NCBI RefSeq assembly: GCF_018398875.1
Contig: NZ_JAGWDK010000002.1
Coordinates: forward strand, 310,001-374,000
Length of the DNA: 64,000 bases
Direction of reading: 5' to 3'
DNA from: Bradyrhizobium sp. sGM-13
GTDB lineage: Bacteria; Pseudomonadota; Alphaproteobacteria; Rhizobiales; Xanthobacteraceae
In this document: positions 17,428 through 41,505 of the stretch, piece by piece
Layout of the letters: every line of letters starts with the position of its first letter
Numbering within the stretch: position 1 is the first letter of the stretch
Notes under the pieces: generated by a model
The model's database searches: none
Seen by the model: the letters and a program-made list of their open reading frames with translations, nothing else
What the model was told of the DNA's origin: nothing
Made by a program: the position numbers and the translations under genes

Positions 17428-17904
17428 CTATTCCGCGTCGGTTGCCTTCAGAAGCTGCGCGACTTCCATTACTTTTCGACGTAGGCGCTCATCAGCAATG
17501 CCGAAGTAGAGCTCGAGGAGCTGACGCGACTCTCGCTTCGTAACCAATTCACTCCAATCCTGTGCTTCGGAGGTTTGCTTCGATTCGACAGACGGTCGTT
17601 TCTTGCCTTCCAACTCGTCGAAGAACCATGTGATCGGGACGGCGAGTTGCACAGCAATGCCGTAGAGTCTTGACGCGCTGATCCGGGTTTCGCCTGCCTC
17701 ATATTTTTGGATGAGCTGAGATGTCAGGCCAAGACGCCTTGCCAGTTCGTCCTGACTCAGGCCGAGGAGGTTGCGCCTGAGACGCAGCCGCTTCCCCACG
17801 TGCTCGTCGACAGGAGTCGGCTTCTTCGACGACACCCTCATTTTGCCGCCCCGCCTGGTCGGCGTGCGGGATTTCGATTTCTTCTCGGAAGGCTCAGAAG
17901 GCAT
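17428..17904 (-). CDS. XRE family transcriptional regulator
   Basis: This 158-residue protein has a basic Ser/Thr/Lys-rich leader of about 30 residues. A Cro/C1-type HTH follows (KRLRLRRNLLGLSQDELARRLGLTSQLIQKYEAGETRISASRLYGIA), and then a region reading VPITWFFDELEG, common in rhizobial XRE regulators. The C-terminus (ELYFGIADERLRRKVMEVAQLL) may mediate dimerisation. ATG at 17904 is preferred over a TTG one codon earlier. It is divergent from the gene at 18070, and their spacer carries a motif repeated before pepM, making it the leading candidate regulator of the phosphonate genes. Confidence 0.88.
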   Translation of the reverse strand: MPSEPSEKKSKSRTPTRRGGKMRVSSKKPTPVDEHVGKRLRLRRNLLGLSQDELARRLGLTSQLIQKYEAGETRISASRLYGIAVQLAVPITWFFDELEGKKRPSVESKQTSEAQDWSELVTKRESRQLLELYFGIADERLRRKVMEVAQLLKATDAE

Positions 17905-17965
17905 CAAGCACCGCCGGTTGAATTCTTGCTCGGCACAATCAATTGGAATGGTGGAAATGGCATAT

Positions 17966-18000
17966 CAACTCCTGGGCGGTACTATCAACTAGAATTATGT
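17966..18000. promoter_or_regulatory. CAACTAGAATTA motif in the XRE/18070 divergent promoter
   Basis: The spacer contains CAACTAGAATTATGT (17986-18000), preceded 20 bases upstream by a half match CAACTCCTGG (17966). The first 12 bases recur identically twice before pepM. The core CTAGAATTAG found at the pepM copies is an imperfect dyad (CTA-N4-TAG). A shared regulator, possibly the adjacent XRE protein, is inferred. Confidence 0.5.
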
Positions 18001-18069: not shown

Positions 18070-18852
18070 ATGCACGAGCCTCTTCCGATATCGGGCCGGC
18101 TACCTGCTCATCTCAAGATCAAATACGGCCCCGTGGACCTGCTCGGGCGGTTCTTCCTCTGGGCCGACACCGCTGCAAGGGATCGCGGCGTAACACTGTC
18201 CTTTGCCAGCCTGCAGGATCTCGTCGAAGCCAATAAGGCCAACTCCGATAGCTGGCGCCCGCTTGTTCCGGTTTTTGACGAGGCTCTGGGCGGCGTTACG
18301 CCGGAGACAGCGTTTGTTCTGATCGGGCGGAACACGCATGGAGAGGTCGTCGCAACACAAGCGGCGCGCATCTATGATTGGCCGGAAACGTCTCTGAAGG
18401 ACGAAGCCACGTCGCTGCGAATGTTCTATGCCGATTCCGCTGCCGCTTTCGCGCGCGGAGATCGCTGCGAGATCACCGCGCCGATTGCCAAGAAAATCAC
18501 CGGGCGCGTCGTCTTTTCCGGTGGCATCTGGTATCGACGTGATTTCAGAGGAAAGGACCTTGGAACTATTCTGCCGCGCATTTCGCGGGCATACGCCTTC
18601 ACACGCTGGAATAGCGATTTCACGATCGGCATGCTGGGCGATGGCGTCATCGCCGGCGGCCTGGCAGAGCGCGCCGGATATACGAAGGTCGAGCTCGGCT
18701 GCATCAAACTTGTGGCGTCGCCGCTTGGCGACATGCGTTGCGGGTTAGCCTGGATGCAGCGTGACGAACTCCTCGCCGATCTCGCAGCAATCATGGATCG
18801 GGCGAGTGTCCCTGTCATTGGGCCCCGCGTTGCCGAGGACGCAAATCACTGA
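18070..18852 (+). CDS. Unknown protein with GNAT-like acetyl-CoA loop
   Basis: I do not recognise a named family for this 260-residue protein. The segment WYRRDFRGKDLGTILPRISRAYAF (about residues 156-180) resembles GNAT motif A, with the R-x-x-G-x-x-G pyrophosphate loop and following helix. An N-acyltransferase is therefore possible. It has no signal peptide or membrane segment. It is transcribed divergently from the XRE regulator with the shared motif about 70 bases upstream, which ties it to the phosphonate operon by inferred co-regulation. Modification of a phosphonate amine is a speculative role. Confidence 0.6.
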   Translation: MHEPLPISGRLPAHLKIKYGPVDLLGRFFLWADTAARDRGVTLSFASLQDLVEANKANSDSWRPLVPVFDEALGGVTPETAFVLIGRNTHGEVVATQAARIYDWPETSLKDEATSLRMFYADSAAAFARGDRCEITAPIAKKITGRVVFSGGIWYRRDFRGKDLGTILPRISRAYAFTRWNSDFTIGMLGDGVIAGGLAERAGYTKVELGCIKLVASPLGDMRCGLAWMQRDELLADLAAIMDRASVPVIGPRVAEDANH

Positions 18853-18871: not shown

Positions 18872-19246
18872 ATGATTATCCAAACCTTTCGTCCAGAGGA
18901 TTCAGAAGGACTTGTCAAGGGGATGTTCGGTTGCATCGACGGCCGGGACTGGGCAGGGCTTTCCGATTTTCTCCACGATGAGGCGATCTACGAACGACCG
19001 GGTTATGAGCCGTTCGTCGGAAAGCCGGCCATCCTGGACTTCTACCTGACAAAACGGATCATTTCGCTCGGCCAGCACTGCGTCGAGAGGGTGCTGAGCG
19101 ACGGCGCAAACATTGCGTGCTGGGGCAGCTTTTCCGGCGTTGCCAAGAATGGGCGCAATCTCAGCATGCGTTTTGCAGATGTCTACCGCATCAGGGAAGG
19201 GCGGATTGATCTACGCCGGACATTCTTCGACAGCCCGGCGATCTAG
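18872..19246 (+). CDS. SnoaL-like / nuclear transport factor 2-like small protein
   Basis: This 124-residue protein has the usual SnoaL-like pattern. An N-terminal helix (GLVKGMFGCIDGRDWAGLSDFLHDEAIYERPG) is followed by GKPAILDFY and beta strands ending RFADVYRIREGRIDLRRTFFD. Members include small hydrolases, cyclases and non-catalytic proteins, so no reaction is assigned. It lies 19 bases after the 18070 gene on the same strand and is probably co-transcribed. The start at 18872 avoids overlap with the upstream gene; an earlier in-frame start is possible. Confidence 0.65.
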   Translation: MIIQTFRPEDSEGLVKGMFGCIDGRDWAGLSDFLHDEAIYERPGYEPFVGKPAILDFYLTKRIISLGQHCVERVLSDGANIACWGSFSGVAKNGRNLSMRFADVYRIREGRIDLRRTFFDSPAI

Positions 19247-20091
19247 GGTGGATTGTTGCTCCCTGAAGTCAAAGACCGATGCGCCGAGAAGGCATGTTCC
19301 CCCGTTTCCCTTGCAGGTGAACGGCAAGATGAGACGCCGATAATGGCAGCGAATGCTATCGTTCATGTCTGGCCGTCTGATCGTGGCGTCCACCTCGTCC
19401 AGGCGCGGTAGTCGCGTCTCCTGGACGCGGCGGTAAATGCCTTCCACCCATCGGCCGTAATTGTAATCCGGTTGTTCTTCCATCGGCAGACCCCGCGAAT
19501 TCTTCCGCCAGGTCTCGCCGTAAATTTCAAAGCCAGATCCGACATCGGTAATGGTCAGCCGGCCATCCACAGGCTCGACAAGCATGAAGCGCGGACGAAG
19601 CGATCAGGCAATACGTCGGCCAGCGTCGCAGAATCGTAAACCTGCTTCGAATCAATCCATTGCGCGAAAAGGGTTGATAGTGCTTCGTCCGTGTTCGCAA
19701 GTATTTCGAGCGGGAGCTCTCTGCTCGTGAACGCGCAAGAAGGTTGCTGATGGCTCGCAGCAATCCGCTCGGCAATGTAGGCGATCGTCTGCGCGAGGCT
19801 CGGGACCAGTTTCTCGACGAACTGGTCCGGATGGGAAATGACGGTGCGCTCGATCCCCATATCGGCGAGGCAGTATAGAGCTGCGGCGATGCTCGTCTGG
19901 GACACCGTTTCGGGCCGAAATCGGATGCGCGCCGCATTGGGAGCGATTTTCGTGACAGCCACAAATCCCAGATTTTCGATGAGGTAGGTCAGAAAATCGA
20001 AGTCGGGAAGTGAGCAGTGCAGGAAGCTTCTTAAGGCCGGGGATCGAGCATCCCATGCGCGACCGCGGTCATCCAGAACGATAGTTTGCAT
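19211..20091 (-). pseudogene. PAS-like domain protein split by a frameshift
   Basis: Two overlapping frames look like one protein. The first, from ATG at 20091 (after GAGGGTCGC), encodes about 178 residues ending VLPDRFVRASCLSS. Near 19585 a one-base shift continues as MLVEPVDGRLTITDVGSGFEIYGETW and a C-terminal part with RRLILPF, which resembles the PAS-type domain of many short rhizobial proteins. The first half has no recognised domain. Its 3' end overlaps the end of the SnoaL-like gene by about 36 bases on the opposite strand. A sequencing error cannot be excluded. Confidence 0.6.
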
Positions 20092-20109
20092 GCGACCCTC
20101 ACCCGTCAA

Positions 20110-20464
20110 CCCGGAGCAAAGTCGTCCATCCAGCGCTCATTGTTTGGCGAAGTTGCGCCATCTTAGCCACACTCGCTGGGCTAGACATCAAAATTCGATG
20201 GATAATTGGCATCACGCTTTAGTGACGCCGTTCTTCGGCGCCGCTCTGCCGTCCCAAATCTGGACGCGCGAAGTCAGAAGCTGAATCGCTTAATGGTTGC
20301 GATGAATGAAGTGGCGCGGGCAACCGGCTGCGTCACTCCGACATGTGGTCTCTCTCAAACAACTAGAATTAGATTTTCTTGCTGGCAACTAGAATTAGAT
20401 ATTGACGCCCAGCATAAATAGGTGACAACTATTGGTTGGTCAGGGAACGCTCAAGGAGTTCGGC
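20110..20464. promoter_or_regulatory. Regulatory region of the phosphonate operon with two perfect CAACTAGAATTAGAT repeats
   Basis: This 355-base non-coding stretch precedes pepM. It holds CAACTAGAATTAGAT at 20360-20374 and again at 20386-20400, 26 bases apart, identical over 15 bases. A partial CAACTATT follows at 20426. A TTGACG hexamer (20402-20407) directly after the second copy could be a -35. A small hairpin CGCCG-TTCTT-CGGCG lies at 20226-20240. No ORF was credible here. Confidence 0.6.
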
Positions 20465-21415
20465 ATGCAACCGCAAAAACAGTCCATCGTTGCGAACAGT
20501 CATCATCACCACGCCACAACGGGAGCGGCGGACAAGCTTCGCAACCAGATCTGCTGCAATCACGAGCTCTCGTTCCTGATGGAAGCCCACGACGCTCTGT
20601 CGGGCGCCATCGCCGAGCGCGCAGGCTTTAAGGGGCTCTGGGCGTCCGGCCTGTCAATTTCGTGCTCGCTGGGCTACCGCGACGCCAACGAAGCCTCCTG
20701 GACCCAGCTCGTCGATGTCGTCGAGCGCATCGTGGACTCGACTGACCTTCCGGTGCTTGTCGACGGCGATAGCGGCTTCGGCAATTTCAACAATGCACGC
20801 CTTCTGGCACGCAAGCTGCAGCAACGTGGCGCTGCCGGCGTCGCGCTGGAGGACAAGGGCTTTCCCAAGATGAATTCGTTCGTCGGCGATCGGCATCCGC
20901 TTGCCGATACCGGCGAATTCTCGGGCCGGCTGCGCGCGGTGAGGGACACGGTAGGCGACGATCTGGTCCTCGTCGCACGGATCGAGGCGCTGATCGCCGG
21001 CCACGGAATGGACGAGGCTCTCATGCGCGCCCATGCCTATGCCGAGGCCGGGGCAGACGCCATCCTCATTCATTCGCGCAAGAGCGCGGCGGACGAGATC
21101 CTCGCTTTTGCCGGCGCCTGGCAGAATCGGCTTCCCGTTGTGATCGTCCCCACCAAGTACTATCGAACGCCCGTCTCCGCCTATCGCGAAGCCGGCATCT
21201 CGACAGTGATCTGGGCCAACCACTCGATGCGGGCGGCAATCGCCGGGATGAGAGACATTTGCGGCCGCATTATCGCCGAGGAGAGCATCGCCGGCATCGA
21301 AGGCGAAGTCGCCACGCTCGACGAGGTCTTTGGTCTAATGCGCTACGGTGAACTCGCTGCCGCCGAGGAGCGATACTTGCCGACGTACGGCGGAAACGGT
21401 CACGCGAAAGCGTGA
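20465..21415 (+). CDS. pepM: Phosphoenolpyruvate mutase (phosphonate biosynthesis entry enzyme)
   Basis: This enzyme rearranges PEP to phosphonopyruvate, forming the C-P bond. It is an isocitrate-lyase-superfamily barrel of 316 residues. The Mg2+ site DGDSGFG is at residues 100-106, and the diagnostic PepM motif EDKGFPKMNS at 129-138 separates mutases from lyases and hydrolases of this fold. ATG at 20465 lies six bases after AAGGAG; the longer TTG start at 20432 lacks this. It heads an operon with methyltransferase, decarboxylase, exporter and aldehyde dehydrogenase. Its N-terminus holds a run of four histidines of unknown relevance. Confidence 0.93.
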   Translation: MQPQKQSIVANSHHHHATTGAADKLRNQICCNHELSFLMEAHDALSGAIAERAGFKGLWASGLSISCSLGYRDANEASWTQLVDVVERIVDSTDLPVLVDGDSGFGNFNNARLLARKLQQRGAAGVALEDKGFPKMNSFVGDRHPLADTGEFSGRLRAVRDTVGDDLVLVARIEALIAGHGMDEALMRAHAYAEAGADAILIHSRKSAADEILAFAGAWQNRLPVVIVPTKYYRTPVSAYREAGISTVIWANHSMRAAIAGMRDICGRIIAEESIAGIEGEVATLDEVFGLMRYGELAAAEERYLPTYGGNGHAKA

Positions 21416-21469
21416 TTCTCCGGCCTCCATCCCACAGCATAGAAACCTTCCTAACGCGGAGATTGTGCC

Positions 21470-22543
21470 ATGCTTCATTCAACACTAGCGACGCCACTGT
21501 CAATCCAGATGCCTGAACCGGATATCGCGCAGGTGATCCGATGGCGCGATAGTTCCTATGCGGCTGACCTCTATATTGCGGCGGTCTCGTGGCTAGATCT
21601 CTTTACCTATCTCGACCAAAGCCCCGCGACTGAAGCAGAACTGCGCAGGCATTTTCAGCTCAAGGAGCGGCCGACGCGAACGATGATCAGGCTCTTTGAG
21701 TCCTGGGGGCTCCTCGTCAACATCGATGGCAAACTTCTCGTGACGGCATCTGCGCGGCGGTACCTGAGCCGCGGCTCAAACGAGAACATTTCCTCCTACA
21801 TTGCCACCATGAAGTACAAATCGTCTGTCCGGGAGATCTACGACGTGTTGCGCCAGGGTGCACCTGACACCTGGCATGTTGAGCGTGGCGACACGACCAA
21901 CTGGGACGCGCTGATGCAAACGGACGATTTCGCCGATCTGAATACGCGCGGAATGGAGGAGCGTGGGCGGATTTTTGCTCCCGATCTCGCGCGCCTGCTC
22001 GATTGTACACAGGACACGGCCGTTCTGGATGTGGGAGGTGGATCCGGGGTCTACTCGGCGCACCTGCTCAACCGCTATCCCAATCTGTCGGCGACGATAT
22101 TTGAGCGTCCCCCAGTCGATCAACTCGCCACGCGATGTCTTGCCGAGCGTAAGCTGACGGCACCAAGAGCGCGTGTGATCGCCGGAGATATGTTTGTCGA
22201 TCCATTTCCGGAAACCGCTTCTCTCCATCTCTATTCGCATGTCCTGCACAATTGGGGGCCGGAGAAGGTGCGGCTGTTGCTGGAAAAATCGTACCAGAGC
22301 TTGCTGCCTGGCGGTCGGGTGGCGGTTTACAGTTGCCACCCGGACGATCGAGGCGGGCCTGCGCCGGTCGCGGAGGCAGAATATTCAGTCCTGCTGACCA
22401 CCGGCTATGAGGGCTGCTGCTACAGTTTCGAGGACATGCGTTCCCTCATGGAAGGCGTCGGCTTTCAGCACGTCGACTATCGCAAGTCGATTTGCAACCG
22501 AAGTCTCATCACGGCGCGAAAGCTCGCCAACAGGTCTGCGTGA
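21470..22543 (+). CDS. SAM-dependent O-methyltransferase with winged-helix dimerisation domain
   Basis: This 357-residue protein has an N-terminal winged-helix dimerisation domain (DLFTYLDQSPATEAELRRHF, residues ~43-62). A class I methyltransferase domain follows, with the SAM motif VLDVGGGSGVYSAHLL at about residues 185-200 and DPFPETASLHLYSHVLHNW downstream. This arrangement is typical of natural-product and plant-type O-methyltransferases. It lies between pepM and the decarboxylase gene, 54 bases after pepM. A phosphonate pathway intermediate or conjugate is the likely substrate, but which atom is methylated cannot be told. Confidence 0.85.
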   Translation: MLHSTLATPLSIQMPEPDIAQVIRWRDSSYAADLYIAAVSWLDLFTYLDQSPATEAELRRHFQLKERPTRTMIRLFESWGLLVNIDGKLLVTASARRYLSRGSNENISSYIATMKYKSSVREIYDVLRQGAPDTWHVERGDTTNWDALMQTDDFADLNTRGMEERGRIFAPDLARLLDCTQDTAVLDVGGGSGVYSAHLLNRYPNLSATIFERPPVDQLATRCLAERKLTAPRARVIAGDMFVDPFPETASLHLYSHVLHNWGPEKVRLLLEKSYQSLLPGGRVAVYSCHPDDRGGPAPVAEAEYSVLLTTGYEGCCYSFEDMRSLMEGVGFQHVDYRKSICNRSLITARKLANRSA

Positions 22544-22675
22544 ACAAGAACTCTGTCTAAACATAATCGCTGTCTGAGCGTTTTGCTCGACCCCTGGTGT
22601 CGTCGATGCTGACGGCACCAAACGCTGCGCCGTGTCCGGCGCGGGAGAAAAATGCCGCCTGTCGGGAGGAAACTA

Positions 22676-23842
22676 ATGACTTTGTCGACAACGACACTCT
22701 TGGCTCTTCTGAAGCAGCAGAGGTATCAGTTTTTTTCCGGAGTACCTTGCTCGAATTTCGCTGATCTGTTCCAGCAGGTATCCTTGGACAAGGATATTAG
22801 GTCAGTCCCGGCAGCGAGCGAAGGCAGCGCGTTGTCATTTGCCGTCGGCGCGGCTCTGGCGGGGCGACGAAGCGTCGTTGCCCTCCAGAATTCCGGACTG
22901 GGAAACATCATCAATCCGCTGACATCGCTAGTCCAGGTTAACTGCATTCCGACACTGCTTCTGATCGCCGTGCGGGGACATACCGACGAACCCAAGGACG
23001 AGCCGCAGCATCGCATCATGGGTGCCAATACCCACGCATTGCTCGATCAACTGGCAATTCCATGGGGCGAGTTCGACGGGACGCCACAGGGGTTCACGGC
23101 GTGCCTCCTGAAGGCCGAAGAGGCGTTCCAGCGATCAGTCTCGTTTGCGATTCTTGTCCGGAAAGGTCAGCTCTCGGCGGGCCTCGGCGTCGTTGTCAAA
23201 TGCGAGCAACCAATGAGCAATTATCCACTCAGCGTCGGATGCGCTTTGGAAATCGTCAGCGAAGCCCTGCGACCCACCGATCTCGTTGTCTCAACAACCG
23301 GGTTCATTTCCCGGGAGTTATTTCGCTCGAGCGACCGGCCGGGGAATTTCTACATGCAGGGATCGTTGGGCCATTGCAGCGCGGTGGCTGCGGGGGTCGC
23401 GCTCGCGCATCCATCGCGTCGCGTGATCGCGCTGGATGGCGATGGCGCTGTGCTGATGCATATGGGGGTCTTGTCCACGATCGGGTACGCATCCCCCCGA
23501 AATTTCCTGCACATCGTACTCGATAACGAAGGCTACGTCTCAACCGGGGGGCAGGAATCCACTTCGGCGACTTCCTCGCTGGAAGCGGTTGCCAAGGCCT
23601 GTGGGTACGGTGCGGTCAGCCGATGCGTAACCAGTGCCGAATTGGGCGAAGCGGTTGCACGGAGCTTGTCGACCGACGGGCCGCACTTCCTGCTCTGCAA
23701 GGTCAATCAATTACATGCGCGCTCGCTACCCCGGGTGACGTCCCGTCACACCCCGGAGGAGAACAAAGAAGCGTTCCAGATCGCGTTGAACCAGCCGCGC
23801 GCCTTCCATCTGCAAGCCGTGCCGGAAGCAGTAGCTCGGTGA
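22676..23842 (+). CDS. ppd: Phosphonopyruvate decarboxylase
   Basis: This TPP-dependent enzyme decarboxylates phosphonopyruvate to phosphonoacetaldehyde, pulling the unfavourable PepM reaction forward. The N-terminal pyrimidine domain has FFSGVPCSNFADLF and PAASEGSALSFAVGAALAG. The C-terminal domain has GSLGHCSAVAAGVALA and the TPP/Mg2+ motif ALDGDGAVLMHMGVL...LDNEGYVSTGG. ATG at 22676 follows GGGAGGAAACTA and gives 388 residues, the usual size. It sits 132 bases after the methyltransferase and 18 bases before the exporter. Confidence 0.92.
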   Translation: MTLSTTTLLALLKQQRYQFFSGVPCSNFADLFQQVSLDKDIRSVPAASEGSALSFAVGAALAGRRSVVALQNSGLGNIINPLTSLVQVNCIPTLLLIAVRGHTDEPKDEPQHRIMGANTHALLDQLAIPWGEFDGTPQGFTACLLKAEEAFQRSVSFAILVRKGQLSAGLGVVVKCEQPMSNYPLSVGCALEIVSEALRPTDLVVSTTGFISRELFRSSDRPGNFYMQGSLGHCSAVAAGVALAHPSRRVIALDGDGAVLMHMGVLSTIGYASPRNFLHIVLDNEGYVSTGGQESTSATSSLEAVAKACGYGAVSRCVTSAELGEAVARSLSTDGPHFLLCKVNQLHARSLPRVTSRHTPEENKEAFQIALNQPRAFHLQAVPEAVAR

Positions 23843-23860
23843 AAACATCAGGCGGTTAAT

Positions 23861-24814
23861 ATGCTGATCGGGTTCCTTTGCCTCTCGTTCGTCGTCGTCA
23901 TTTGGGGCACAAACTGGCTTGTGATCAAGGATGCCTTGCAGTCTTCGCCGCCCCTGCTCTTTACCGGCATCCGTTTGCTCGGCGGGGCAATCGCGATCGG
24001 AGCCGCCCGGCTGTGCCTTGGATACCCACTCGAGCTTGGTTGTGGTGGGAAGGGCAGGCTTGTCGCGGTGGGTCTCCTTCAAATGGCTGGAGGCCTTGGG
24101 CTGAGCCTGGTCGGCTTGCAGTATCTCGATGTCGGCACCAGCGCTTTGATTTTCTATACGATGCCCTTGTGGCTCATCGCGATCGAATGGACGATCGATC
24201 GCCAAAAGCAATCGCTCCTCGATGTCATCGCACTGACCTGTGGAATGCTTGGTCTCGGCCTACTGGCGTTGGGCGCGAATCCGGTTGCGACACCTCATGG
24301 CATCCTGGGCATCGCGCTGCTCTCGATGGCGGCTTTCAGTTGGGCGCTGGGAACATGGATCCACAAACGTACCCCCGGCGACATCGACGTATGGAGCCGT
24401 ACCATCTTTCAATTGGCGACTTCAGGCGTAGTTGTCATCGTTGCGTCGCTCCTGCTGGAGCGTCGGATTGACTGGACACAATTGCCGATTCTTGCCTGGC
24501 CTATCGCATTCAACTGCATCGTGGCGACAGGGTTGGCGTTCGTCGCCTGGTACCGCGCGCTCAGCACTATTTCCACGCAGATCGCATCCCAGAGTCTCGT
24601 GCTGATCCCTGTCGTCGCGCTGGTAGCGGCTGCCGTCCTGCAACAGGAGACTCCCACGACACGCGTCGTCGTCGCCTGTGTCTTCATCATCGTCGGTGTC
24701 TCCATCGCGATCTGGCATGCTGGTGGCCAAGGGAGCCGAGCCGGTGAGTGCGAGCCCGCGCGGTCGGAAGCCTACGATCGGCACGGAACGCCACACGGAG
24801 CCGAGCGATGTTAG
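23861..24814 (+). CDS. DMT superfamily (EamA) transporter, candidate phosphonate exporter
   Basis: This 317-residue inner-membrane protein has about ten hydrophobic segments in two EamA repeats. The first opens with VVVIWGTNWLVIKDAL and the second begins near GILGIALLSMAAFSWALGTW. A short hydrophilic tail follows. EamA carriers often export metabolites. Placement inside the phosphonate operon, with its stop overlapping the start of the aldehyde dehydrogenase gene, suggests export of the product or an intermediate. The substrate is inferred only from context. Confidence 0.85.
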   Translation: MLIGFLCLSFVVVIWGTNWLVIKDALQSSPPLLFTGIRLLGGAIAIGAARLCLGYPLELGCGGKGRLVAVGLLQMAGGLGLSLVGLQYLDVGTSALIFYTMPLWLIAIEWTIDRQKQSLLDVIALTCGMLGLGLLALGANPVATPHGILGIALLSMAAFSWALGTWIHKRTPGDIDVWSRTIFQLATSGVVVIVASLLLERRIDWTQLPILAWPIAFNCIVATGLAFVAWYRALSTISTQIASQSLVLIPVVALVAAAVLQQETPTTRVVVACVFIIVGVSIAIWHAGGQGSRAGECEPARSEAYDRHGTPHGAERC

Positions 24815-26244
24815 ATTCGACGCGGCTCTATCATCCAATGAAGATCGCAGGAGAGGATGTTCATACGGACGCATCCATCGATGTGCGGAACCCGTTTACC
24901 GGTCAGATAATAGCTGTAGTGCCGCAGGCGCGTCCCGAACATGCGCGCCGCGCCTTCGCGATTGCGCGGGCATTCCGTCCCAGGCTCACGCGGCGTGAGC
25001 GGGCGCGGATCCTCCTGGCGACGGCGGATGCGATCGAAGCAAACCGAGACAGGCTTGCGCGCCTGATTACATCGGAAAGCGGCCTATGCTTGAAAGACTC
25101 GCTACATGAAACCGCGCGGGCCAAGGATGTCTGGTCATTCGCCGCGCATGCAGTGCTCCAGGACGATGGAGCGATTTACGCGGGCGATATCGGAGGGAAT
25201 GCGCAAAGCAGACGCATATTTGCGACCAGGACGCCGCTCCTTGGTGTCATCTCAGCGATTACTCCCTTCAACCATCCGCTGAATCTCGTGAGCCATAAGC
25301 TCGCTCCGGCGATCGCGACCAACAATAGGGTCGTGCTCAAACCGGCAGAGGCGACTCCTTTGACCGCGCTTGCTCTTGCCGAGCTGCTTTATGAGGCGGG
25401 ACTGCCGCCGGAAATGTTGTCGGTAGTCACCGGCGATCCGCGTTCGCTGGGAGATGAGATGATCAATGACCCGGATATCGACCTGGTGACATTTACCGGA
25501 TCGGTGAGCGCCGGAAAGAAAATTGCCGAACGGGTGGGATATAGAAGGCTGGTGCTCGAGCTCGGCGGGAACGATCCTCTGATCGTAATGGGTGACGCTG
25601 ATCTCGACCGCGCAGCCCGATTGGCGGTGCAGGGTGCGACCAAGAATTCCGGGCAACGCTGTACCGCCGTCAAGCGGGCCTTGGTCGTCGAGGGCATAGC
25701 CGATCGCTTTGCCGAAGCGACCCTCTCTCTGATGAGGCGCCTCACGGCAGGAGATCCCATGGATCCCAACACGGATGTGGGCACGGTCATCAATGCGAAG
25801 GCGGCGTCGACAATTGCCCGACGCGTCGAAGCCGCAATTCAGGGCGGCGCCCGCCTGCTGCTCGGCAATACTCCGAAGGGCGCGCTTTACCCGCCGACAC
25901 TATTGGACCATGTCGCGTACGATTGCGAGTTGGTGCGCGAAGAGACCTTTGGTCCCGTCCTGCCGATCATTCGCTGCCCGGATGACGTCGAGCACATCAT
26001 CGCCATCGCAAATTCAACGGCCTTCGGTCTTTCGGCGGGGTTGTGCACAAACAGGCTCGACTACATCACCCGCTTTGTCGATGGTCTCGACGTCGGCTGC
26101 GTCAACGTGTGGGAAGTTCCAGGATACCGGACGGAGCTGACGCCATTCGGCGGCATCAAGGATTCCGGCCTCGGCCATAAGGAGGGCGTGCTGGAGGCCA
26201 TGAAGAGCTTCACGAACATAAAAACCTACTCGCTGCCGTGGTGA
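24808..26244 (+). CDS. phnY: Phosphonoacetaldehyde dehydrogenase
   Basis: This 478-residue aldehyde dehydrogenase would oxidise phosphonoacetaldehyde to phosphonoacetate with NAD(P)+. The fold motifs FTGSVSAGKKIAERVG and ELGGND (Glu251) and the catalytic Cys285 in NSGQRCTAVKR are clear. The sequence around the cysteine is like that of PhnY-type enzymes. ATG at 24808 overlaps the exporter stop and follows GGAG. With PepM and Ppd it completes a PEP-to-phosphonoacetate route. No phosphonoacetaldehyde hydrolase (PhnX) or PhnW transaminase is present, so the aldehyde is presumably supplied by Ppd. Confidence 0.85.
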   Translation: MLDSTRLYHPMKIAGEDVHTDASIDVRNPFTGQIIAVVPQARPEHARRAFAIARAFRPRLTRRERARILLATADAIEANRDRLARLITSESGLCLKDSLHETARAKDVWSFAAHAVLQDDGAIYAGDIGGNAQSRRIFATRTPLLGVISAITPFNHPLNLVSHKLAPAIATNNRVVLKPAEATPLTALALAELLYEAGLPPEMLSVVTGDPRSLGDEMINDPDIDLVTFTGSVSAGKKIAERVGYRRLVLELGGNDPLIVMGDADLDRAARLAVQGATKNSGQRCTAVKRALVVEGIADRFAEATLSLMRRLTAGDPMDPNTDVGTVINAKAASTIARRVEAAIQGGARLLLGNTPKGALYPPTLLDHVAYDCELVREETFGPVLPIIRCPDDVEHIIAIANSTAFGLSAGLCTNRLDYITRFVDGLDVGCVNVWEVPGYRTELTPFGGIKDSGLGHKEGVLEAMKSFTNIKTYSLPW

Positions 26245-26252
26245 GGCAAACT

Positions 26253-27230
26253 TCAATCCAGGAGTTTGGACCCGGCCGCTTCATCGGTGACCAGGACCTG
26301 GCAGAAGCCAGCCAGCAGGCCGGCGCGAATGATGGGGACCTTGTGCTCGCCTCCGGCGGCGAGAATCCGATGTCTGATTTGGAGCACATGGTCGATCGGC
26401 GGATGGATCGTTCGTTGCACCAGGGGGTGGTGAAGCGGCTTACCGGCTGAGTCGAGGTAGTGACCGCAAATGTCCCCGACCGCACCGGCTTCAAGCAACG
26501 AAGCCCAGGTTTCGCGAGAAATGACCTCGTACTCGAGCGCCTTTGATTGCTCGGAGAGGTCGATCGCACTCAACAGGGCCACGTCGAGGGAGGGCACCAT
26601 GGCGAGCACTGAACGAACAGGCTCACTCGCGACGAGGATGTCCCTCAGCTCCGCCGTCTCGGCGAACATCGGCGCGGTCAGATAATAGCATCGCGCGCCA
26701 AGCGCCCGGGCTATCATGGTTGCATTGTCATACGGATTGATCGGCGCGCTTTCGGCCAACCCGCCCGACATCAGCACCACGCGGGTGCCGTCTCCAGATC
26801 GCTGCGGCAGGCTTTGAGCTGCGGCATTGATGGTGCCTCCCCAGGTGATTCCTAGCGAACCCGACGGCGGGAGGCACTCGGCGACGTATCGCGCGGCGGC
26901 GGCTCCGATGAACGAACGCACGTCGGTGCCGCCCAGGGGGACCGGGACCACGATCGCGTGACGCAGGTCAAATTTGCGGATGAGTTCTTCTTCAATCTCG
27001 GTGCGGTGGCCAGCCGGATCGGCGATCGTGATTTGAACGAAGCCGCTTTCCCGTGCCTCACCGAGGATCCGGTTGACGCGCTTGCGCGTCATCTTCAGCC
27101 GCTGCGCGATCGCGTCCTGGGTTTGGCCTTCCCTGAAATAGTACCAGCAGATTTTGGCCACCAACGCGGCGTCGGCTCGACCATCGCCGGCTTCGCCTTC
27201 GCTTGGTGCCGCTTGCGGGCCTCGAATCAA
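26253..27230 (-). CDS. SorC/DeoR-type sugar-binding transcriptional regulator
   Basis: This 325-residue protein has an N-terminal HTH (WYYFREGQTQDAIAQRLKMTRKRVNRILGEARESGFVQI) and a C-terminal SorC effector domain (ITWGGTINAAAQSLP, RVVLMSGGLAES, GDICGHYLDSAG). This domain senses phosphorylated sugars in studied members. The only sensible start is TTG at 27230, six bases after GGAG. It is divergent from the importer-PhnA operon and ends eight bases from phnY on the other strand. A phosphonate or phospho-compound as effector is a reasonable guess. Confidence 0.88.
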   Translation of the reverse strand: MIRGPQAAPSEGEAGDGRADAALVAKICWYYFREGQTQDAIAQRLKMTRKRVNRILGEARESGFVQITIADPAGHRTEIEEELIRKFDLRHAIVVPVPLGGTDVRSFIGAAAARYVAECLPPSGSLGITWGGTINAAAQSLPQRSGDGTRVVLMSGGLAESAPINPYDNATMIARALGARCYYLTAPMFAETAELRDILVASEPVRSVLAMVPSLDVALLSAIDLSEQSKALEYEVISRETWASLLEAGAVGDICGHYLDSAGKPLHHPLVQRTIHPPIDHVLQIRHRILAAGGEHKVPIIRAGLLAGFCQVLVTDEAAGSKLLD

Positions 27231-27320
27231 CGCGCACTCCGATCAGCTTCAGGAACCGCTGTTTGCCTCCTTCGGGGGTGGATGGCAACCCCATCATATT
27301 TCTCCACAATTCATCGTTAT

Positions 27321-27351
27321 GCACAAATGTGCCTGCATCGTCACAAATGTG
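27321..27351. promoter_or_regulatory. Paired CACAAATGTG operators upstream of the importer-PhnA operon
   Basis: The spacer between the SorC-type regulator and the operon contains GCACAAATGTGC (27321-27332) and CACAAATGTG (27342-27351). Both are CACA-N2-TGTG dyads with starts 20 bases apart, about two helical turns, matching cooperative binding. They lie 50-80 bases before the first gene. The SorC-type regulator is the natural candidate. Confidence 0.6.
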
Positions 27352-27401
27352 TAATGGGCTCTCTCTATCAGTTCGCCGAGCTTGGAAACAGGAGAGAATC
27401 C

Positions 27402-28604
27402 ATGCGTCGGCTGGTCATCGTGTCATCACTGCTGTGCGGCTGGGCAACGTCCGCCCTCGCGCAATTTTCCGACAACAAGATCGTCATCGGTGTGATGGGT
27501 GATCAAAGCGGAGTCGTCGCTGATGTCGGCGGACCCGGATCGATCCTGGCGGCCCGTATGGCGGTTGAGGATTCGGGCGGGACTGCTGGCAGTGTCCCCA
27601 TCGAGATCATTACTGCCGACCATCAGAATAAGCCCGACGTCGCGTCTGCGATTGCCCGCGAATGGTTCGACCGGCGCGGCGTCGACGTCGTCGTCGACCT
27701 GCCGCATTCCGGTGTGGTCTTCGGGTTGATGGCGATTGCCACCGAAAAAAAGCGCTCCCTGATGATATCCGGCGCCGCCAGCGTGGAGATAACCGGAGGG
27801 CGCTGCTCCCCCTTTGCCACGCACTGGACTGATGACACTTACTCGCTCGCGCGCGGGACCGCCGCGGCCCTGATGCAGCAGGACCTGAAGTCCTGGTATT
27901 TTCTCACCGCGGATTACGCATTCGGCCACGATCTCGAAAAGGACGCTTCGCGCGTCGTCGAGGAACGTGGAGGTAAGGTGGTTGGAAGCGCTCGCCACCC
28001 CCTGAGCACGGCCGATTTCTCCGCGCTTCTGCTCCGTGCGAAATCCTCGCAAGCGCAGGTAGTAGCGCTGGCCAGCGCCGGCGCTGACACCGTCAACGCC
28101 ATCAAGCAGGCTGGTCAGTTCGGTATCATGCGCGGTGGCCAGCGTGTCGCGGCTCTCCACGCATTCGTCACCGACATCAACAGTGTCGGTCTCGAAGCGG
28201 CTCAGGGCCTGATCATCACCAGCGGCTTTTACTGGAATGACACCGATGGGACTCGCGCCTTTTCTGAGCGCTTTTTCAAAGCTCATGGACGCATGCCGAC
28301 CCGTGAACAAGCCGGCGTCTATACGAGTGTGCTGCACTATCTCAAGGCCGCCAGCAAAGCGAAGACTGACGATGCCGCGGTCGTGAATACGGAAATGCGA
28401 AAGCTGCCCGTCGATAAATTCGGCCGGCAAGTCCACATTCAGGAAAACGGTCGCGTCGTCTACGATCTCGGTGTTTATCGTGTGAAGACCGCGGCCGAGA
28501 GCAAAGCTCCCTGGGACTACTATGAGCGCATCGCCACGGTTTCGGCCGACACCGCCTTTCGCTCGATCGATACCGCGGGCTGCGCCGCTCCGAGCGTTCG
28601 ATGA
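27402..28604 (+). CDS. ABC transporter substrate-binding protein, branched-chain amino acid type
   Basis: The ATG at 27402 follows AGGAGAG and opens with a signal peptide (MRRLVIVSSLLCGWATSALA, cleavage after ALA). The mature part matches type I periplasmic binding proteins of the LivJ family: KIVIGVMGDQSGVVADVGGPG, VDVVVDLPHSGVV, WYFLTADYAFGHDLEKDA. Length is 400 residues. Family members bind amino acids, amides, urea, aromatic acids and others, so the substrate is open. The operon context points to a phosphonoacetate conjugate or related compound. The stop overlaps the next gene's ATG. Confidence 0.88.
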   Translation: MRRLVIVSSLLCGWATSALAQFSDNKIVIGVMGDQSGVVADVGGPGSILAARMAVEDSGGTAGSVPIEIITADHQNKPDVASAIAREWFDRRGVDVVVDLPHSGVVFGLMAIATEKKRSLMISGAASVEITGGRCSPFATHWTDDTYSLARGTAAALMQQDLKSWYFLTADYAFGHDLEKDASRVVEERGGKVVGSARHPLSTADFSALLLRAKSSQAQVVALASAGADTVNAIKQAGQFGIMRGGQRVAALHAFVTDINSVGLEAAQGLIITSGFYWNDTDGTRAFSERFFKAHGRMPTREQAGVYTSVLHYLKAASKAKTDDAAVVNTEMRKLPVDKFGRQVHIQENGRVVYDLGVYRVKTAAESKAPWDYYERIATVSADTAFRSIDTAGCAAPSVR

Positions 28605-29422
28605 CGACCCTCATTCTTGATCGTCCGCAGCGGGCAGCCGCGCCAATTGCCTCGGCTGTCCGAAAGCGTGCTGCAACTTCGCTGCTGAGCGCCCGCGACC
28701 TGACTGTTCGTTTCGGCGATTTCGAAGCGCTTCGCGGCGTCTCGATCGATCTCGACGCAAGGTCGATCCATGCGGTGATCGGGCCCAATGGGGCAGGCAA
28801 GACGACGTTATTCAACGTGATCAGCGGCTTTATGAAGCCGACCGCCGGCCACGTTCATCTCAACGATGTGGATGTGACTGCGGTCTCGCCGAACCGTCTT
28901 GCGCGGCTCGGGCTGGCCCGATCGTTTCAGATATGCTCGATTTTTCCAAATCTCTCCGTCGCCGATAATGTCCGCACGGCACTGGCGCTGAACGTGCGGG
29001 GTCTGCAGCTCCTGCGCGGCCGTTCGAGACGGAACGAAAATGAAGCAACGGTCCGGCATCTTCTCGATCAAGGCGGGTTGACAGACGAAAGCGAACGCCG
29101 CGCCGCGGATCTACCCTATGGTCGCCGGCGACTGCTTGAAATCGTCACGACGATCGCCATTGCGCCGAAATTTCTGCTGCTCGACGAGCCCACTGCGGGT
29201 CTCGCCCGGGAAGACATCGCGCCTGTCGCGGCCCTGATCAAGACGGTCGCCGCCACCTGCGGCGTCCTTTTGGTCGAACACAATCTGCAGGTCGTGAAAA
29301 GTCTGGCAGCGAAGGTCACGGTGCTCGCGGAAGGCTCGGTCCTCTGCGAGGGCAGCTACGACGAGGTCGCGCGCGACCCTCGCGTGATCAGCGCCTACAT
29401 CGGGGCCGAGTGTCGTGCCTGA
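28601..29422 (+). CDS. ABC transporter ATPase (LivG type)
   Basis: This 273-residue protein has Walker A GPNGAGKTT (residues ~63-71), a Q-loop region (FQICSIFPNLSVADN) and Walker B FLLLDEPTAG. It ends with DPRVISAYIGAE, typical of LivG. The C-loop in front of Walker B reads DLPYGRRRLLEI, an LSYG-like variant. An N-terminal extension of about 28 residues precedes the ABC domain. It overlaps the substrate-binding protein gene by four bases and the LivF-type frame follows at once. Confidence 0.92.
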   Translation: MTTLILDRPQRAAAPIASAVRKRAATSLLSARDLTVRFGDFEALRGVSIDLDARSIHAVIGPNGAGKTTLFNVISGFMKPTAGHVHLNDVDVTAVSPNRLARLGLARSFQICSIFPNLSVADNVRTALALNVRGLQLLRGRSRRNENEATVRHLLDQGGLTDESERRAADLPYGRRRLLEIVTTIAIAPKFLLLDEPTAGLAREDIAPVAALIKTVAATCGVLLVEHNLQVVKSLAAKVTVLAEGSVLCEGSYDEVARDPRVISAYIGAECRA

Positions 29423-29432
29423 GGCGGTTTCG

Positions 29433-30122
29433 ATGCGCCTATCGAACGTGCAAGCGTGGTACGGCGATTCTCAGGCGCTGTTCGGCGTCGGGTTCGCGGT
29501 TCGGCCAGGCGAGGTGACCTGTCTAGTTGGCCGCAATGGCGCGGGTAAGACAACCATCCTTCGCGCCATCATGGGTTTACTGCCGCGACAAACCGGCAGC
29601 ATTATCTTGTCGGGGCGCGAAGCAAGCGGAATGCGCCCATATGAGCGTACTCGGTTCGGCATCGGCTATTGCCCCGAGGAGCGGGCGATCTTCTCCAGCC
29701 TTACCGTCGAGGAGAATCTTGCCCTTCCTCCGGCGGTTCGCGCCGCGGGCATGGCCAAGGCCGATATCTTCGCGCTGTTCCCGAATCTTCGCACGAGGGG
29801 ACGCCACTATGGCGACCAGCTCAGCGGCGGCGAGCAGCAAATGCTCGCCATCGCGAGGATTTTGCGCACAGGCGCGCAGACGCTTCTTTTGGACGAACCC
29901 ACGGAGGGACTGGCGCCGGTCATCGTGAAACAGATCGAGCATGTGCTGATCGAACTCAAGCGACGCGACTACACGATCCTGCTTGTGGAACAGAACCTCG
30001 ACTTCGTCCTGCATCTGGCCGATCGGGTGGTGGCGATCGAAAACGGTTCGGTTGTGGACGACCTCGAAACCCGAGGTGGCGAGTACGTCAGGGCTCGGCT
30101 CCTCGAACGTCTAGCGCTGTGA
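29433..30122 (+). CDS. ABC transporter ATPase (LivF type)
   Basis: This 229-residue protein has Walker A GRNGAGKTT, signature LSGGEQQMLAIARIL and Walker B LLLDEPTEGLAP. The sequence starting MRLSNVQAWYGDSQALFGV is typical of LivF. I chose ATG at 29433, eight bases after GAGG; a GTG at 29415 overlapping the previous gene would add six residues. It probably dimerises with the LivG-type subunit to power the fused permease encoded seven bases downstream. Confidence 0.9.
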   Translation: MRLSNVQAWYGDSQALFGVGFAVRPGEVTCLVGRNGAGKTTILRAIMGLLPRQTGSIILSGREASGMRPYERTRFGIGYCPEERAIFSSLTVEENLALPPAVRAAGMAKADIFALFPNLRTRGRHYGDQLSGGEQQMLAIARILRTGAQTLLLDEPTEGLAPVIVKQIEHVLIELKRRDYTILLVEQNLDFVLHLADRVVAIENGSVVDDLETRGGEYVRARLLERLAL

Positions 30123-30129
30123 TTCCTGC

Positions 30130-32046
30130 ATGACAGATCTCATCCTCGGCTACCTTACGATCGGCCTCGTCAACGGCTCGTTCTATGCGCTGCTTAGTCT
30201 CGGGCTAGCGCTTATCTTCGGCCTTCTCAACATTCTCAACATGACGCATGGCGTGCTCTACATGATGGGCGCTTTTGCCGCATGGGCCGGCTCTCGTTAT
30301 CTCGGATTGGGGTATTTCGGGGGGCTGATTTTCGCACCGGTCTGCGTAGCTGCTTTCGGCATCATCCTCGAACGTTCGTTGCTGCGTCGAACCTATGGCC
30401 TCGACCCGCTCTACGGATTCATGCTGACGTTCGGCGCGGCGATGGTCGTTCAGGGTGGCTTCCAGGCCTATTTCGGTTCGACCGGACTTCCCTACGCCGC
30501 GCCGGATTGGCTATCCGGCGGGCTGGATCTCGGTTTTCTGTATTTCCCTGCATACCGACTTTGGGTCGTCGCCGTGGCGCTTGTCATATGTGTGAGCGTC
30601 TGGATCGCAATTGCGCGCACGCGTCTTGGCTCGGTTCTGCGCGCGTCGTCCGAAAATGCAGCTACTGCCGAAGCGCTCGGCGTCGGCGTGCCTCATGTTT
30701 TCGCCGCCACTTTCGCCCTGGGCGCCGCCCTGGCGGGACTGGCAGGCGCGCTGGCCGCGCCGATCTACCAGGTCAGCCCTCTGATGGGCTCGGACATCCT
30801 GCTTATCGTATTTGCAATCATCGTCATCGGCGGCATGGGCTCGATCGGAGGAACCATCGTCTCGAGCTATGCCCTCGCGCTGATCGAGAGCCTTACACAG
30901 GCGCTGGTCCCGCAGGCGGCAAGCTTCATCGTCTTCGCCTTCATGTGCGTTGTGCTTCTGCTTCGGCCGCAAGGGCTGTTCGGCATTTCGGTGGTCCGAT
31001 CCCACGAATTCCTGGCGGCCCGGCTTCCGTGGATTGAGCCTGCGGATAAGGAAACCGCCGCCGAACGCTTGACCGGCATGGTGCCGGTACTCGCCGCCGT
31101 TGCCGCGCTTTTGGCACTGCCGATGCTGCTCTATCCCGTCTACCTGATGAAGATCTTCTGTTTCACGATCTTCGCCGCCTCATTCAATTTCCTGCTGGGA
31201 TTTGCCGGCATCATGTCCTTTGGCCAGGCGGCCTTGTTCGGTACTGCGGCCTATCTCACAGCGCATGCGGCGAGAGAGTGGGCGCTGTCACCGGAAGCCG
31301 CGATCGGCGTCGGGATAGCGGCGGCGCTCGTTCTCGGTTTCGTCATGGGCGTCTTTGCGATCAGACGCCGGGGCATCTATCAGGCCATGATCACGCTGGC
31401 GATCGCGCAGATGGTCTATTTTGTCTATGTGCAGGCCAGCTTTACACATGGCGAGGATGGCATCCAGTCAGTCCCCCGCGGGATGTTGCTGGGGCTGATC
31501 GATCTTCGCAACGACACCAATGTTTACTGGCTCTGCGCTGCCGCCATGCTCGGTGTGCTCTTCGGTCTGCGCCGTCTGATCAACTCCCCGTTCGGGATGA
31601 TGTTGATCGCCATTCGCGACAATGAACGCCGGGCTCTGTCGCTGGGGCACAATGTTGACGCATACAAACTCGCTGCATTCGGCATCGCCGCTTTCTGCGC
31701 CGGCATTGCCGGCTCGATGAGCGCCATCGTCTTTCAGTTGGCCACATTGTCCGGCGTGCATTGGCATCTCTCGGGCGAAGCCGTGCTGATGGCGTTGATC
31801 GGCGGTATCGGAACATTCGGCGGACCTCTCGTCGGCGCCGCCGTGTTGGTGACGATGCAGCATTTCCTATCGTCGTTCGGCGCCTGGATCGTGGCAATCC
31901 AGGGAGCCGTCTTTGTTCTGTGCGTCCTGCTGTTTCGCGACGGGTTATTGCCCCATGCCCTTGCACTCGCCGCAAATCTTCGCCGGCAGGACGCAACGTC
32001 GAAAACGAGCGGGACGCCGCAAGCTGTGGAGGCTGTCGGCCAATGA
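30130..32046 (+). CDS. ABC transporter permease, LivH-LivM fusion
   Basis: This 638-residue membrane protein joins two permeases. Residues 1-~295 match LivH (LVNGSFYALLSLGLALIFGLLNILNMTHG, GIILERSLLRRTYG, GGMGSIGGTIVSSYALALIE). Residues ~315-620 match LivM (NFLLGFAGIMSFGQAALFGTAAYLTA, IRRRGIYQAMITLAIAQMVYFVY, AIRDNERRALSLGHNV). A cytoplasmic linker (PWIEPADKETAAERL) separates them. Single-chain fusions of this pair occur in some proteobacteria. It replaces two subunits of a five-component importer; its stop overlaps the amidase ATG. Confidence 0.92.
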   Translation: MTDLILGYLTIGLVNGSFYALLSLGLALIFGLLNILNMTHGVLYMMGAFAAWAGSRYLGLGYFGGLIFAPVCVAAFGIILERSLLRRTYGLDPLYGFMLTFGAAMVVQGGFQAYFGSTGLPYAAPDWLSGGLDLGFLYFPAYRLWVVAVALVICVSVWIAIARTRLGSVLRASSENAATAEALGVGVPHVFAATFALGAALAGLAGALAAPIYQVSPLMGSDILLIVFAIIVIGGMGSIGGTIVSSYALALIESLTQALVPQAASFIVFAFMCVVLLLRPQGLFGISVVRSHEFLAARLPWIEPADKETAAERLTGMVPVLAAVAALLALPMLLYPVYLMKIFCFTIFAASFNFLLGFAGIMSFGQAALFGTAAYLTAHAAREWALSPEAAIGVGIAAALVLGFVMGVFAIRRRGIYQAMITLAIAQMVYFVYVQASFTHGEDGIQSVPRGMLLGLIDLRNDTNVYWLCAAAMLGVLFGLRRLINSPFGMMLIAIRDNERRALSLGHNVDAYKLAAFGIAAFCAGIAGSMSAIVFQLATLSGVHWHLSGEAVLMALIGGIGTFGGPLVGAAVLVTMQHFLSSFGAWIVAIQGAVFVLCVLLFRDGLLPHALALAANLRRQDATSKTSGTPQAVEAVGQ

Positions 32047-34671: not shown

Positions 34672-34673
34672 CT

Positions 34674-38842: not shown

Positions 38843-38861
38843 TCCAAAATGGAGACCGTCC

Positions 38862-41471: not shown

Positions 41472-41505
41472 CGGCGCCCTCGGAGTTGAGCAGACGCTTT
41501 CGTGG

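Follow-up and report, generated by a model that had tools for sequence, protein, structure and literature searches.

Phosphonate synthesis and phosphonate breakdown have mostly been studied as separate gene sets. What, then, is the role of a locus in which one set adjoins the other? The locus in question lies in a 64,000-nucleotide stretch of Bradyrhizobium sp. sGM-13 (contig NZ_JAGWDK010000002.1, positions 310,001 to 374,000; hereafter the window), part of an 8.3 Mb draft genome in 574 contigs, and it appears to do both, via phosphonoacetate. An operon predicted to synthesize phosphonoacetate (20465 to 26244) is followed on the same strand by one predicted to import and hydrolyze phosphonoacetyl compounds (27402 to 40151), with a SorC/DeoR-type regulator gene between them. 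On balance, we consider it probable that this is a two-part phosphonoacetate locus that makes, exports, re-imports, and dismantles phosphonoacetate compounds. The synthesis operon comprises the following genes.

20465 to 21415, plus strand: pepM, phosphoenolpyruvate (PEP) mutase (TIGR02320, 331.6 bits, cut-off 319.55; motif EDKGFPKMNS; frame opens at 20432)
21470 to 22543, plus strand: S-adenosylmethionine-dependent methyltransferase of the PF00891 type (86.3, cut-off 22.3)
22652 to 23842, plus strand: ppd, phosphonopyruvate decarboxylase (TIGR03297, 333.7, cut-off 312.5)
23861 to 24814, plus strand: EamA/DMT transporter, presumed exporter (PF00892, 106.4, cut-off 28.2)
24808 (or 24838) to 26244, plus strand: phnY, phosphonoacetaldehyde dehydrogenase (TIGR03250, 721.1, cut-off 635.65)

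The intergenic gaps are 54 bases between pepM and the methyltransferase gene, 108 between that gene and ppd, and 18 between ppd and eamA; eamA and phnY overlap if phnY starts at 24808 or are separated by 23 bases if it starts at 24838. As judged from the sequence, five same-strand genes with curated scores are far beyond chance. The best solved relative of PepM is a PEP mutase (PDB 1m1b, which we take to be the mussel enzyme; 324.6 bits), and the motif pattern EDKxxxxxNS is presumably diagnostic of PEP mutases. Ppd is closest to 9iz3, a two-chain phosphonopyruvate decarboxylase, and PhnY has a sole PDB match at the limit used (4i3t, presumably the Sinorhizobium meliloti PhnY; 590 bits) in which the Cys of GQRC is aligned. 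This Cys is residue 285, the number given in an earlier note on this DNA, if the ATG at 24808 is the start. For the methyltransferase, the closest solved relatives are other methyltransferases of low similarity, from which no substrate can be assigned; its LHNW motif resembles what we take to be that of O-methyltransferases.

The earlier note had described five genes in one same-strand operon, all of which are present as described and closely spaced, and had read their core chemistry as PEP to phosphonoacetate, a prediction borne out by PepM, Ppd, and PhnY scores above curated cut-offs. Its concern that PhnY or Ppd might fall outside the phosphonate clades is answered by scores inside phosphonate families for PepM, Ppd, and PhnY and, in the case of PhnY, by a tree in which it groups with other PhnY proteins. 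A flow from PEP through phosphonopyruvate and phosphonoacetaldehyde to phosphonoacetate is thus strongly indicated by the predicted enzymes, with Ppd, the second step that would pull phosphonopyruvate onward, encoded inside the pepM operon. Methylation and export of a derivative are moderately well indicated.

The regulator and the breakdown operon follow directly.

26253 to 27230, minus strand: SorC/DeoR-type regulator, convergent with phnY and divergent from the import operon (family profile matches)
27402 to 28604, plus strand: Liv-type substrate-binding protein (PF13458)
28601 to 29422, plus strand: LivG-type ATPase (family profile matches)
29415 to 30122, plus strand: LivF-type ATPase (family profile matches)
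30130 to 32046, plus strand: fused LivH-LivM permease (family profile matches)
32043 to 33392, plus strand: amidase-signature hydrolase (PF01425)
33379 to 34671, plus strand: phnA, phosphonoacetate hydrolase, cleaving the C-P bond to acetate and phosphate (TIGR02335, 578.6, cut-off 407.55)
34674 to 35960, plus strand: PDE2, phosphodiesterase-like hydrolase of the alkaline phosphatase superfamily (PF01663)
35953 to 40151, plus strand: Ugp-type ABC importer (ATPase, two permeases, binding protein), overlapping PDE2

From Liv to Ugp, neighboring genes overlap or lie at most 19 bases apart. PhnA matches PDB 3szy (403.9 bits) with its AKDKLR stretch, presumably involved in substrate binding, aligned. 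The predicted product of the synthesis operon, phosphonoacetate, is the substrate of PhnA, which would fit the part of a linked catabolic enzyme for the compound made. The assignment of PepM, Ppd, PhnY, and PhnA to their families and the content, order, and conservation of the genes are established at the sequence level. The earlier note had concluded that the pathway was dedicated to a secreted phosphonoacetate product, which leaves out this adjacent importer-amidase-PhnA-PDE2 operon able to destroy phosphonoacetate. It was correct that PhnW and PhnX are missing: neither scores above its cut-off anywhere in the draft genome (best PhnW, 98.8 bits; cut-off, 400.8). Taking this as a lack of C-P cleavage does not hold, given that PhnA is encoded 7 kb away and that the same contig also carries, elsewhere, a gene for C-P lyase (PhnJ).

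We examined the conservation of the arrangement in 265 Bradyrhizobium genomes, of which 24 encode the methyltransferase (E <= 1e-40) and 53 encode PhnA (E <= 1e-60). The methyltransferase regions of the 23 other genomes were fetched, and the window genes were mapped onto each. Loci with a complete synthesis operon (type A) number 14 including the window, with carriers such as B. valentinum, B. retamae, B. lablabi, B. hereditatis, and strains STM 3843, SRL28, and CSA112; PhnA and PDE2 lie downstream in all 14. In 10 of them, the Ugp importer comes straight after PDE2. Liv is complete in 12 and lost in L116 (G357) and L117 (G427); an amidase of nearly full length is likewise present in 12, while L116 retains only part of it and L117 none. 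PhnA in L111 and the methyltransferase in L118 are each in two pieces, by frameshift or assembly error. Eleven of the type A genomes are close relatives (PhnA at least 86% identical) and three are diverged, with identities of 77 to 79% for PepM, 67% for PhnA, 57 to 58% for Ppd, and 55 to 60% for LivG. The two sub-lineages also differ in the position of genes that, in the window, lie upstream of pepM.

17428 to 17907, minus strand: XRE-type helix-turn-helix (HTH) regulator, linked in both sub-lineages
18070 to 18852, plus strand: conserved protein matching no family, called GNAT-like by reading of its sequence only
18872 to 19246, plus strand: SnoaL-like protein (family profile match)
19211 to 20091, minus strand: protein divergent from pepM, of no family (a single frame in each of the 11 relatives examined but split in two in the window)

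In the three diverged genomes, the HTH, GNAT-like, and SnoaL genes lie on the other side of the locus, past PDE2, in inverted order. The pairing of synthesis with breakdown has therefore outlived rearrangement of its flank.

A second arrangement (type B), found in nine genomes, consists of the methyltransferase, Ppd, and PhnY genes. The ~3 kb fetched upstream of them holds no PepM, and neither an EamA match nor an adjoining PhnA was seen; a type-B-like locus in a tenth genome (G466) is decayed. All ten carry PepM homologs elsewhere, the one in L128 lying some 5 kb downstream. At E <= 1e-60, PhnA is confined to two of the nine, G346 with three copies of the PhnA module, one of them adjoining a phosphonopyruvate hydrolase gene, and G493 with fragments; the other seven have none. 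A stop flagged in several type B methyltransferase rows was not taken to mark a pseudogene, as the alignments reach the last residues and it may be the normal stop. The PhnA subtype of the window (at least 67% identity; the next is 59%) occurs in 16 genomes, each of them one of the 24 that encode the methyltransferase, which is found in none of the 37 genomes whose PhnA proteins are all of other types (hypergeometric P ~4e-20, a descriptive value that treats related genomes as independent). An order-wide sample of 397 genomes yielded the methyltransferase in four, three of them Bradyrhizobium and one from another family (G604), where an EDK-bearing PepM, the methyltransferase, and Ppd stand at a contig end. 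In the plasmid collection, the methyltransferase had no match at E 1e-30.

Trees were built for PhnY and PhnA. In a midpoint-rooted PhnY tree that included 14 type A and nine type B sequences, with G466 left out, the PhnY proteins of both types form a single clade (support 100/100), and type B is sister to the three diverged type A sequences. This clade is nested in a wider one with PhnY of the Bradyrhizobium PhnA-PhnY loci L137, L142, and L143 and a Hephaestia sequence, which, under the midpoint root, suggests that the PhnY of the synthesis operon was recruited from a catabolic PhnY. The module PhnA proteins (type A and the three G346 copies) likewise form a clade of their own (100/100), separate from the PhnA adjoining PhnY in L142 and L143; their nearest sister, with weak support, is the PhnA of L135 to L139, of which the L137 protein is also near a PhnY. 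Eleven synthesis, regulator, and breakdown genes, each compared with five relatives, gave omega values of 0.05 to 0.29, indicating purifying selection on both halves, with the values being rough in the most diverged comparison, where dS exceeds 1. The GNAT-like gene is more relaxed (0.16 to 0.40).

The two operons carry unlike promoter elements.

20360 to 20407, plus strand: pepM promoter element, a direct repeat of CAACTAGAATTAGAT with a period of 26 (alignment of type A loci)
17986 to 18000, plus strand: related element CAACTAGAATTATGT, between the HTH and GNAT-like genes (sequence comparison)
27322 to 27351, plus strand: two CACAAATGTG boxes in the liv promoter region, candidate SorC operators

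Direct repeats like CAACTAGAATTAGAT stand upstream of pepM in all 11 close type A genomes, with at most three mismatches in the first copy, and are replaced in the three diverged genomes by CTACCAGAGTTAGTAATTGAT. The related element between the HTH and GNAT-like genes recurs in all eight close loci examined and in all three diverged loci. Across the liv promoter region, GTCACAAATGTGT is invariant in the 14 aligned loci, including the two without Liv genes; the number of CACAAATGTG boxes was equaled in 8 of 100 shuffles. A sigma-70 scan of 20100 to 27500 returned no promoter-like sites, and terminator-like sites were no commoner than chance (8 against a mean of 6.8). The unlike elements point to separate control of the two operons and hence to making and harvesting under different conditions. 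We considered whether the HTH regulator might bind the pepM element in the manner of PraR and rejected this, since the elements share only a CAAC half-site with the PraR consensus, given in the part of PMC5527310 consulted as CAAC-N5-GTTG from systematic evolution of ligands by exponential enrichment; a passage of PMC4149787 gives the PraR site as TTGCAA.

Parts of the breakdown operon recur in other settings. Homologs of PDE2 were found in five records of the plasmid collection, with PhnA within 10 kb in four. Two plasmids of nodule isolates, both typed conjugative, carry LysR-phnA-PDE2-phnDEC-amidase (Rhizobium sp. 007) and LysR-phnA-PDE2-ABC-amidase (Phyllobacterium zundukense), and a Variovorax replicon carries a Urt/Liv-like importer followed by amidase-phnA-ADH-phnY-ABC-phosphodiesterase-PDE2. 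Within these cassette stretches, to which the search was confined, neither PepM nor the methyltransferase had a match. The recurrence of an amidase and PDE2 with PhnA under varied importers is the best hint of a natural substrate that may be masked at both ends.

Taken together, these observations are arranged most readily as follows. PepM, Ppd, and PhnY would convert PEP via phosphonopyruvate and phosphonoacetaldehyde to phosphonoacetate, the methyltransferase would methylate an intermediate or the product, and EamA, presumably acting outward, would export the methylated result. The liv-amidase-phnA-PDE2-ugp operon, probably under SorC control, would take up a phosphonoacetyl compound, from which the amidase would release the carboxyl end and PDE2 would release the phosphonate from its ester; PhnA would then split the C-P bond to yield acetate and phosphate. 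A strain would thus make the compound under one condition and harvest its own or its kin's under another. In this scheme, we infer in which order the hydrolases act, what groups mask the compound, which way EamA transports, how the operons are regulated, and that the halves share a substrate. Re-import with stepwise unmasking ahead of C-P cleavage is suggested with moderate confidence, action of both operons on one compound could go either way, and sharing of the compound among cells is suggested weakly. The product that fits best is phosphonoacetate masked at one or both ends; its predicted content is probably a carboxyl amide or ester together with a phosphonate ester.

Several observations weigh against a locus that makes and dismantles one compound. 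No amide-forming enzyme was recognized. Neighboring genes need not share a substrate, and the 11 close genomes may merely share a chromosome region by descent. The two of 14 loci that have lost Liv also have a partial (G357) or absent (G427) amidase, and the type B sets make clear that synthesis genes can exist without the breakdown half. Elsewhere, PDE2 lacks a nearby PhnA in eight of 10 other alphaproteobacterial genomes, some of whose stretches were ended by contig ends, and in one of the five plasmid records. The amidases of the cassettes are only 30 to 35% identical to that of the window, and the recurring set may therefore be convergent.

The constancy of PhnA and PDE2 beside complete synthesis operons would also be expected if the product were a secreted bioactive phosphonate and amidase-PDE2-PhnA destroyed whatever leaked back, serving resistance rather than nutrition. 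Retention of PhnA in the two loci without Liv agrees with such self-protection. A breakdown operon equipped with two complete importers is hard to reconcile with it, however, and it accounts poorly for plasmid cassettes that have their own importers and no adjoining synthesis genes or for the seven of nine type B genomes without PhnA at the cut-off used. We regard it as unlikely.

Rather doubtful, in our view, is that the halves are neighbors by history, the breakdown operon scavenging environmental phosphonoacetyl compounds unrelated to the synthesis product. PhnA modules do occur without an adjoining synthesis operon, in the three G346 copies and on plasmids, and the unlike promoter elements would be natural for unrelated operons. 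Yet the halves stay adjacent in two diverged sub-lineages with rearranged flanks, the window PhnA subtype was found in Bradyrhizobium only in genomes that encode the methyltransferase, and the product of PhnY is exactly the substrate of PhnA.

The equilibrium of PepM lies toward PEP. This, and the clustering of PhnY beside that of the PhnA-PhnY loci, would suit a wholly catabolic locus in which phosphonopyruvate passes via Ppd, PhnY, and PhnA to acetate and phosphate while PepM salvages phosphonopyruvate to PEP. Such a role is very improbable: nothing in the operon, such as an aminotransferase, would supply phosphonopyruvate, the methyltransferase and EamA transporter are ill-suited to it, and the genome already has a separate PalA-like/aminotransferase/Ugp-type locus (L146; own contig C56, 8385 to 17210). 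The phosphonopyruvate-hydrolase-like gene of that locus scores just below its cut-off (TIGR02321, 367.0 against 374.4) and is accompanied by an aminotransferase, a LysR regulator, and a Ugp-type importer 40 to 62% identical to that of the window; L146 probably serves phosphonoalanine breakdown. Hardly credible, finally, is synthesis of 2-hydroxyethylphosphonate (HEP) and then methylphosphonate, as the part of PMC10708946 consulted proposes for B. roseus S12-14-2 (G384/L115), which carries the same array and for which pepM, ppd, pdh, and an O-methyltransferase are named with transporters, because PhnY scores as an aldehyde dehydrogenase above the phosphonoacetaldehyde dehydrogenase cut-off and would oxidize the aldehyde, whereas HEP needs a phosphonoacetaldehyde reductase (PhpC, so named in a passage of PMC9381506), and the profile scan of the operon matched no alcohol-dehydrogenase family.

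A two-part phosphonoacetate locus can be set beside several known systems. The B. roseus phosphonate cluster is the same operon as that of the window, assigned HEP and methylphosphonate in the text consulted where we read phosphonoacetate. The main text of PMC10708946 holds no word starting with "hydrolase", so PhnA appears unreported there. The synthesis operon is thus already in print with another product, and the linked breakdown half may be new: in the open-licence literature, we found no report of phosphonoacetate breakdown genes beside a PepM operon. Actinomycete clusters for phosphonoacetic acid products (O-phosphonoacetic acid serine of Streptomyces sp. NRRL F-525 and the K. fiedleri cluster) likewise reach a phosphonoacetate intermediate by way of PepM, Ppd, and a PhnY-like aldehyde dehydrogenase, as given in a passage of PMC12723261; their Ppd is the product of two genes, and neither PhnA nor an importer is named in that passage. 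The window locus adds an O-methyltransferase-type gene, an EamA gene, and the linked breakdown operon. For an enzyme that would couple phosphonoacetate to serine or another partner, a family profile scan of 20465 to 26244 matched no ligase or pyridoxal-phosphate enzyme family, and the linked GNAT-like protein is unassigned. Hydrolytic degradation of 2-aminoethylphosphonate (2-AEP) by PhnWAY uses the same two reactions of PhnY and PhnA. With no PhnW or PhnX above cut-off in the genome, PhnY and PhnA here are not the 2-AEP route of PMC9381506; the aldehyde would come from Ppd, and the window PhnA belongs to a well-supported clade that excludes the PhnA adjoining PhnY in L142 and L143, the L137 protein being less distant.

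Bradyrhizobium also harbors a second PepM group, 69 to 81% identical to the window PepM over the main piece (L144, on own contig C43, 9961 to 10830; L145, L147, L148, L128, and L149 to L162). In all 19 of its sequences examined, EDS or QDS replaces the EDK of PEP mutase, which is present in the six type A loci inspected out of 14. Nearby genes include a nucleotidyltransferase gene in 11 of 19 and a CDP-alcohol phosphotransferase-like gene in four of 19. L145 (own contig C35, 9961 to 10734), the third PepM homolog of the window genome, is interrupted by an internal TAG. Supply of the window operon by EDS-type paralogs was discounted, since the window itself encodes a PepM of the EDK type. A palindromic element close to TCAACTACCAACGCTAGCAATTGATC lies ~80 to 150 bases upstream of most EDS-PepM and type B methyltransferase genes (L120 to L130, L144 to L162). 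Its 24-bp form, TCAAYTRCYARCGYTRGYARTTGA, was read by eye post hoc, and a 14-base test pattern was taken from one of its rows, which makes the statistics descriptive: within three mismatches, the pattern occurs in three of nine type B methyltransferase regions, 10 of 17 EDS-PepM regions, and 2.0% of regions shuffled plainly, with dinucleotides not preserved. In L125, L128 (methyltransferase), and L153, the best match lies in unlike sequence; the L128 element is just beyond the tested stretch. A palindrome common to both sets suggests one phosphonate regulon.

At the flanks of the window locus, the GNAT-like protein and the protein divergent from pepM both go unmatched in Pfam (E 0.001) and in NCBIfam (E 0.01), and their predicted models are of low confidence (mean predicted local distance difference test scores of 34.1 and 51.3). 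Weak Pfam matches in their relatives (E 0.27 and 0.33) were taken as chance. A GNAT-like homolog (26%) adjoins an EDS-type PepM in G480 (L162, 6878), and the protein may be tied to phosphonate loci more widely. The split of the pepM-divergent gene in the window may be genuine or an error of the draft assembly; the first part of this gene is likewise mapped as two pieces in L113. Directly past the breakdown operon lie acetate kinase and phosphoketolase genes (40290 to 43932, minus strand), with a putative link to the acetate yielded by PhnA.

Two operons with different promoters have been kept adjacent in evolution. If one compound serves both halves, soil and nodule bacteria would have in it a private store of phosphorus or a private signal, and because the breakdown operon itself hints at the content of the product, that product is directly testable. 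In rhizopine and opine systems, plant-associated bacteria link synthesis with uptake and catabolism of one compound. The likeness of these systems (mos/moc for rhizopines) to the window locus is in outline only: synthesis and catabolic genes are linked, with PhnA and PDE2 by every complete synthesis operon and by none of the nine type B operons, while the chemistry differs and the window locus also occurs in B. roseus, free-living according to the title of PMC10708946. More speculatively, and with little confidence, we propose that producers secrete masked phosphonoacetate as a C-P currency that only carriers of amidase, PDE2, and PhnA can open, returning phosphate, acetate, and the masking group to kin, with the conjugative-plasmid cassettes of nodule isolates, which lack adjoining synthesis genes, as takers. 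If true, this currency would be the phosphorus analog of rhizopines and opines.

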